Both the position numbers and the translations under genes were made by a program. The notes under the pieces were generated by a model, which was not told the DNA's origin, ran no database searches, and saw nothing but the letters and a program-made list of their open reading frames with translations. A stretch of 47,729 nt of DNA from Candidatus Methylacidiphilales bacterium (GTDB lineage Bacteria > Verrucomicrobiota > Verrucomicrobiia > Methylacidiphilales > JANWVL01), in NCBI GenBank assembly GCA_025056655.1, contig JANWVL010000105.1, positions 1 through 47,729 of the forward strand. Direction: 5' to 3'. This document shows positions 8,374 through 9,373 of the stretch, piece by piece (within the stretch, counting starts at the first letter, position 1; every line of letters starts with the position of its first letter).

Positions 8374-8437
8374 ACAGCCAGCCTTCTGATTCTGAGAGGA
8401 TCTGGAGGAGGCAACTCGGAGACAGAAGGCTGGCTGT
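8374..8437. repeat. Long dyad, 15-base perfect arms
   Basis: Arms ACAGCCAGCCTTCTG (8374-8388) and its exact reverse complement (8423-8437) flank a 34-base centre. The centre holds GGAGGAGG in the plus direction and CCTCCTCC in the minus direction. There is no T-run on either side, so an ordinary intrinsic terminator is unlikely. It may be a structured RNA, a transposon relic or a protein-binding site. Confidence 0.7.
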
Positions 8438-8439
8438 AT

Positions 8440-8495
8440 GGGGTTATCCTGATGCTCCTATAAGGGGGTTATCCTGATGCTCTTATATCCTGATG
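8440..8495. repeat. Short direct repeats with ATCCTGATG core
   Basis: GGGGTTATCCTGATGCTC occurs at 8440-8457 and again at 8465-8482, a 25-base period. A third partial copy, ATCCTGATG, is at 8487-8495. The block directly abuts the long dyad. The TTATCC part matches the first six bases of a DnaA box, but the remaining ACA is absent, so iteron or DnaA function is only a guess. Confidence 0.6.
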
Positions 8496-8594: not shown

Positions 8595-8636
8595 GGCAAC
8601 TCGGGAGAGCTGCGGTTTTTTGCCTCCCGAGTTGCC
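8595..8636 (-). terminator. Dyad after the cysteine-rich lipoprotein gene
   Basis: Arms GGCAACTCGGGAG (8595-8607) and CTCCCGAGTTGCC (8624-8636) are perfect inverted repeats with a 16-base loop. The structure begins 14 bases after the stop codon of the minus-strand lipoprotein gene, the place of a transcription terminator. It lacks a T-run on the minus strand, so it could instead be an mRNA-stabilising or regulatory hairpin. Confidence 0.5.
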
Positions 8637-8650
8637 GTGGTGTTGCGTGG

Positions 8651-8803
8651 TTATTTACCGCAGCAATCTTCGCATTTGCCTTTGCAGCAGGCTTCGCAGT
8701 TGTCGCCGCAACATTTTTTGCAGCGGTCGCTTGTCTTCTCGGCTGTGGTGGCACAGCCGATGGTGAGGAAGGCTGCAAGAGCAATAAGGATGAATGTTTT
8801 CAT
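8651..8803 (-). CDS. Cysteine-rich mini-lipoprotein with three CxxCC units
   Basis: A 50-residue ORF, below usual length cut-offs. It begins with a lipoprotein signal, MKTFILIALAAFLTIGC, with lipobox TIGC and Cys17 as the lipidation site. The mature part is strongly patterned: CxxCC units at residues 28-32, 36-40 and 44-48, separated by GDN and KGK and ending GK. That gives nine cysteines in a 21-residue stretch, plus the lipidated one. A strong ribosome-binding site, GGAGG (8811-8815 on the complement), lies seven bases before the ATG, unusual in this window. Metal binding (Cu, Zn, Cd) or redox buffering at the envelope are plausible inferences; no known family is recognised. A dyad follows the stop codon. 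Confidence 0.78.
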   Translation of the reverse strand: MKTFILIALAAFLTIGCATTAEKTSDRCKKCCGDNCEACCKGKCEDCCGK

Positions 8804-8899
8804 AAGTGAACCTCCGTTTGTGAAGGGTTTAATAGACGAGCCCCAAGGATTGGCCTGGGTTTATTCAGGCATGATTGGGGTGCCGACTTTCGAGGCCGA

Positions 8900-9292
8900 T
8901 CAGATGAGGCGAGGCGGAGGGAGGAGAGGGCGCTCTGTGCGGGAGAGGGCCGTCTCGTCGAGGAGATGAAAGGATTGGGTGAGGGCGGGGCAGGGCAAGA
9001 GAGAGGTCGGAAGTGAAAGGGTGTAGGGATAGGGGGAGAGGGGTGAGCAGAGACAGGTGGCGTGGCAGGGAGTGAAGGGCGCGTGGGAACAGGCTGCGGG
9101 AGATGCGTCTTGAGACGGAGATGGAGCACAGCAGGAGGAGGCAGGTGGGGTGTTTTCGCAACAAGCACAGGAGGAAGGTTGGTGGGCAAGCGGGAGCGAG
9201 GCAAAGCTTGTGATGGGCGTAAGCACTGAGGCGGCCGTCAGGCTTGTGAAAGCCAACGAGGCGATGAGCGTGGAGAGGGATGACGGCCGCAT
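8900..9292 (-). CDS. Putative secreted cysteine-rich protein, unknown
   Basis: A 130-residue frame starting with a hydrophobic signal-like segment (about residues 6-31, ending near SFAS), followed by a Cys-rich region with CACC, SCC, an isolated Cys in PAACSH, and CHATCLC, then a Pro/Leu-rich tail ending in PPPRLI. The signal-then-cysteine-pairs layout makes it more likely to be real than the overlapping frames, but the low-complexity tail and weak start context leave doubt. It lies 96 bases upstream of the mini-lipoprotein gene on the same strand; both are Cys-pair-rich and may share a role, such as metal handling. No family is recognised. Confidence 0.5.
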   Translation of the reverse strand: MRPSSLSTLIASLAFTSLTAASVLTPITSFASLPLAHQPSSCACCENTPPASSCCAPSPSQDASPAACSHAPFTPCHATCLCSPLSPYPYTLSLPTSLLPCPALTQSFHLLDETALSRTERPLLPPPRLI

Positions 9293-9373
9293 AAGGTTAA
9301 GATAAATGCGGAACGGAGCGTGTCAAGGTAGAGACGGCTTGTGAGGCGGGTCGCGGTGGGGTAGGATGAGGGG

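Follow-up and report, generated by a model that had tools for sequence, protein, structure and literature searches.

The well-studied bacterial metallothioneins, SmtA and MymT among them, are cytosolic, and metallothioneins are rich in CxC motifs; the M3Cys9 cluster of the metallothionein beta domain counts nine thiols. The peptide described here, which contains three CxxCC units and no CxC, is encoded in the window, the whole stretch of 47,729 nucleotides that was analysed. It shares with SmtA/BmtA (Metallothio_Pro) and MymT a very short, Cys-rich chain without a hydrophobic core, but differs from SmtA and MymT in its export signal, the period of 8 of its CxxCC units, the absence of His and the lack of a match to a Pfam metallothionein. 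With the beta domain it has in common exactly nine thiols in about 21-30 residues, although that domain is not exported and has no sequence relationship to it. The chlamydial OmcA (Chlam_OMP3), likewise small and Cys-rich, is a lipoprotein, as the peptide may be, but its length and Cys pattern are different. Like the CxxCC gene, MymT corresponds to a small non-annotated ORF, and a further likeness is found in Csp1, an exported Cys-rich protein holding Cu(I) outside the cytoplasm (PMC7558416). However, Csp1, which has a Tat signal, is larger and forms a tetramer of four-helix bundles, and no similarity to it was found; the 34-aa mature peptide is too short for the four-helix bundle of the Csp proteins and matched no PDB sequence. 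Among efflux systems, SO_0444 is one that Shewanella needs to grow when stressed by Zn or Cu (PMC3219624); in Nitratiruptor, the genes induced by Cd as well as by Cu include one of the SO_0444 family (PMC10092412).

The CxxCC gene lies on the minus strand at positions 8651 to 8803, starts with ATG, stops with TAA and codes for an exported peptide of 50 aa, as indicated by the ORF list, the codon score and the existence of a relative in another genome. The product reads MKTFILIALAAFLTIGC-ATTAEKTSDR-CKKCC-GDN-CEACC-KGK-CEDCC-GK. Its translation shows a signal sequence (residues 1-16) with a lipobox-like LTIGC ending at the possibly lipidated C17 (8753 to 8803, minus strand), followed by nine more Cys, so that the mature part contains 10 Cys in 34 residues including C17, and no His or aromatic residue. 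The three evenly spaced CxxCC units noted in the sequence-only reading were confirmed at residues 28-32, 36-40 and 44-48 of this minus-strand product, and the core that they form, CKKCCGDNCEACCKGKCEDCC, extends from 8660 to 8722 on that strand. A ribosome-binding site, GGAGG, is located 7 nt 5' of the ATG (8811 to 8815, minus strand). The codon-usage score of the ORF is +0.155 bits/codon, and that of every overlapping alternative frame tested is negative.

The hairpin said to follow the stop codon is indeed present and strong (8595 to 8636, minus strand; folding -28 kcal/mol, z -6.8), but it lacks a T-tract and is thus not a classical intrinsic terminator, and a scan for intrinsic terminators gave no match at the CxxCC gene. 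The hairpin is built by two copies of GGCAACTCGG, a sequence that occurs in about three copies in the window (8413-8422, 8595-8604 and 8627-8636), one of them inverted. Near-duplicate GGGGTTATCCTGATGCTC units are also found in the intergenic DNA at 8437-8490.

Relatives of the peptide were searched in 62 genomes of the order with a profile and with a DNA pattern that covers two units. The only other true relative in the order is encoded at G009:C110:1626-1778 and has the sequence MKKLILSLAFSIAALVALNSVQASAGTASCQACCGDKCAQCCKGDCGSCCK. Its genome, G009, belongs to another family of the order than the window genome, which is the sole member of its own family in the genome set searched. In a single comparison, the two peptides were aligned at E 9e-10. 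Over the 21-residue core they are identical at 9/9 Cys and at four of the six linker residues, the linkers CCGD/CCKG being kept, and at none of the six 'xx' residues. For the 21 codons of the core, dN is 0.33 and dS 2.0, giving a dN/dS of about 0.16 that comes from one pair with dS near saturation. As one relative is known, the constraint rests on this single pair of 21 codons, and it supports a protein-level constraint on the cysteines. The Cys pattern that the sequence-only reading expected to recur in related genomes is thus present in G009 together with an export signal, and the ratio of nonsynonymous to synonymous changes agrees with the protein constraint expected there.

Matches to the two-unit pattern occurred in 11 of the 62 genomes, and a reversed control pattern gave one match each in two of them. 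The only small exported ORFs with two matches in register, corresponding to three units, were those of the window and G009, and the remaining matches resemble TGC/CTG-rich DNA. The three-unit CxxCC pattern is therefore not a product of chance. According to one alternative, the ORF would be spurious or a fresh repeat expansion without function, given that its three 24-nt units are 58-63% alike and may descend from duplication, and that CxxCC patterns often arise by chance in TGC-rich repeats. This explanation, already disfavoured by the ribosome-binding site and the positive codon score, is barely credible in view of a relative in another family that has a signal sequence, all nine Cys and the low dN/dS.

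The lipobox, read by eye as L-T-I-G-C17, carries Thr instead of Leu at position -3 and is therefore acceptable, not textbook as it had been called; the general pattern fits, but it is not conserved in the G009 relative. The genome of the window has a gene for signal peptidase II (PF01252, 116.8 bits), and the window peptide would probably be anchored in the envelope by a lipid at C17. The relative in G009 shows an ASA|G site similar to those cleaved by signal peptidase I and no comparable lipobox, and is probably released by that enzyme. It follows that the signal sequence is common to the pair, whereas lipidation may not be: the comparison of the two peptides supports conserved export, and neither an obligate lipoprotein nor the outer-membrane location suggested before is supported.

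No family was found for the CxxCC peptide in Pfam, NCBIfam, PADLOC or the PDB sequences, and for these libraries the earlier statement that it belongs to no known family holds. A Pfam scan up to E 10 gave only a chance scorpion-toxin match at 0.18; very weak matches may have been lost to the HMMER filters. Neither the Metallothio_Pro/SmtA profile nor the Chlam_OMP3 (OmcA) profile matched the peptide, and no CxxCC lipoproteins were found by a literature search. An AlphaFold2 model built from the two sequences predicts a short helical turn for each CxxCC, with a pLDDT of about 80 there and 66 for the whole model; a Foldseek search with this low-confidence model found no similar structure in the PDB. 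Judged by its sequence, the peptide is outside every metallothionein sequence family tested. It displays the traits of metallothioneins as a functional class, being small, very Cys-rich, devoid of aromatics and conserved in its Cys spacing (9/9).

The presence of nine thiols in 21 residues, without His or aromatics and on short polar linkers, favours a metallothionein-like reading, and the conservation of these nine Cys in G009 next to heavy-metal efflux genes makes the product probably a small extracytoplasmic metal-binding peptide. Our preferred explanation, with a probability of roughly 0.55, is that of an extracytoplasmic metallothionein-like thiolate peptide that would buffer or sequester soft metals (Cu(I), Zn, Cd). 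The signal sequence would take the peptide out of the cytoplasm, and after export its nine thiols, on short polar linkers, could wrap a small soft-metal cluster of three divalent ions or several Cu(I). The metal would then be buffered or sequestered in the envelope, alongside metal-efflux proteins. A metal-thiolate role had been suggested before, and the metal-efflux genes found near the relative in G009 now support it independently, metal binding itself being what we infer.

The gene order in G009 is an ArsP_1 permease, a Cys-rich, exported-looking protein of 119 aa, the CxxCC gene and a terminator, the last recognised by eye 3' of the CxxCC gene, where a T-rich run comes after a GC-rich hairpin. 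As a likeness to SO_0444-type Cu/Zn efflux units, the CxxCC gene of G009 thus comes after a permease of ArsP_1 type whose N-terminal segment is rich in Cys (DCCGDQ..SC..TCC); no gene of this kind adjoins the window copy. The permease (L031 1-1120) scored 105 bits with ArsP_1 of Pfam, 103 bits as SaoE-like and 88 bits as SO_0444 Cu/Zn efflux-like, below the equivalog cut-offs of both SaoE and SO_0444; as the SO_0444 cut-off is 300 bits, it is a distant relative of the latter and not an equivalog. The 119-aa protein carries CC and CxxxCxHC motifs and has a relative in another genome, G005 (31% identity, E 1.5e-6), for which no Pfam or NCBIfam family was found. This relative is located in a cluster with two heavy-metal RND pumps of the CusA/CzcA family and their adaptors (G005:C38:198000-214000, L337). 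A Cys-ended protein of 154 aa is encoded in the same cluster.

The main rival explanation is a disulfide-bonded small envelope peptide, whose cysteines could form disulfides instead in an oxidising envelope. By analogy with OmcA, the CxxCC units would be engaged in intra- or intermolecular disulfides of a rigid or cross-linked surface lipopeptide. Export brings the peptide into a compartment that permits disulfide formation, its odd mature Cys count (9) would spare one for an intermolecular bond, and the host phylum, Verrucomicrobiota, is related to the Chlamydiae. However, neither Chlam_OMP3 nor any other Pfam family was matched, metal-efflux genes accompany the relative in G009, and the short polar linkers and absence of hydrophobics are closer to metallothioneins than to disulfide folds, which makes this explanation rather unlikely. 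The high thiol content and the export would also be expected of an envelope peptide that serves as a thiol redox buffer or as a sink for oxidants, with no specific metal. Such a sink needs no particular spacing, whereas the exact spacing of the nine Cys was kept though all xx residues changed, and the metal-efflux context in G009 argues in the same direction; this role is quite improbable. Copper handling for methane oxidation was also considered and rejected, as within the order pMMO/AMO is present only in family f7 (AMO/pMMO subunit A, PF02461, in 13/13 genomes) and is absent from the window genome and from G009. With this enzyme and genomes of about 1.9-2.5 Mb, family f7 would correspond to Methylacidiphilaceae, and the order to Methylacidiphilales.

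Several points speak against the metallothionein-like reading, among them that the CxxCC copy of the window has no adjoining metal gene, that the upstream ORF, ORF-A, is unlike its positional counterpart in G009, that the constraint comes from a single relative and that the cysteines could be oxidised to disulfides in the envelope. The neighbours of the CxxCC gene are a tRNA-Met gene, an ABC-2 transporter pair and adenylosuccinate lyase, which say nothing on the function of the peptide, and both ArsP_1 genes of the window genome are on other contigs. ORF-A (8900 to 9292, minus strand), the best of six frames, would code for 130 aa with a signal-like N-terminus and a Cys-rich sequence (SCACC..SCC..) ending in PPPRLI, and is preceded immediately 5' by a sigma-70-like promoter, TTGACA-16-TATCTT (9299 to 9326, minus strand), identified by consensus match only. 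Its synonymous codon bias is like that of true genes, and it is likely coding. No family match was found for ORF-A, and no metal-regulator site was recognised by eye upstream of it. ORF-A ends 96 nt upstream of the CxxCC gene, compared to 94 nt for the counterpart gap in G009, and is possibly the first gene of a two-gene unit with it. Homology between ORF-A and the 119-aa protein of G009 was tested and not found, in spite of their similar positions.

The small size of the CxxCC gene, its strong ribosome-binding site and the strong hairpin directly after its stop codon would also suit a metal sensor or leader-like peptide, in which a neighbour would be regulated through the translation of the short Cys-rich ORF or through metal binding. 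However, the product has a signal sequence, the gene in G009 is the last of its unit, before the terminator, and the window copy is followed on its strand by the tRNA and ABC transporter genes, with no metal gene, so that a regulatory role appears highly improbable.

We further propose, tentatively, that the metallothionein-like peptides of the window and G009 may represent a new exported, partly lipid-anchored metallothionein family with CxxCC at period 8, whose members would carry a cluster of M3Cys9 type in the envelope and cooperate with heavy-metal efflux. Should the peptide bind metal, its metallothionein-like cluster would lie in an extracytoplasmic compartment in which free thiols risk oxidation. 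It would also be an example of how metal-handling peptides of this size go unannotated.

The search was extended beyond the pair. Two further order-level searches in small genome sets, a DNA pattern search in 384 genomes of the class and a tblastn search of plasmids yielded no further relative. A DNA pattern scan of the whole collection, after in-frame translation, gave no exported relative among the matches listed, which included low-complexity CCxG/CxxC repeat reading frames, and a stricter pattern scan of viral contigs gave repeats only. Long period-4 CCxG frames (CCVGCCEGCC...) are frequent in phage-like contigs (e.g. L152, L194, L219) and are probably the shadow frame of repetitive DNA. 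The profile search in 388 genomes of the phylum yielded no further relative apart from a Sel1-repeat protein with a CC stretch. This match, in the Akkermansia-like genome G158 (E 1.9e-8), is not an orthologue, but a Sel1-repeat protein of 174 aa that contains a CCGEKAAACCKGD stretch. Encoded on the minus strand at L329 1120-1644, the Sel1-repeat protein of the Akkermansia-like genome carries ACCGEKAAACCKGD after its signal, and further CC motifs.
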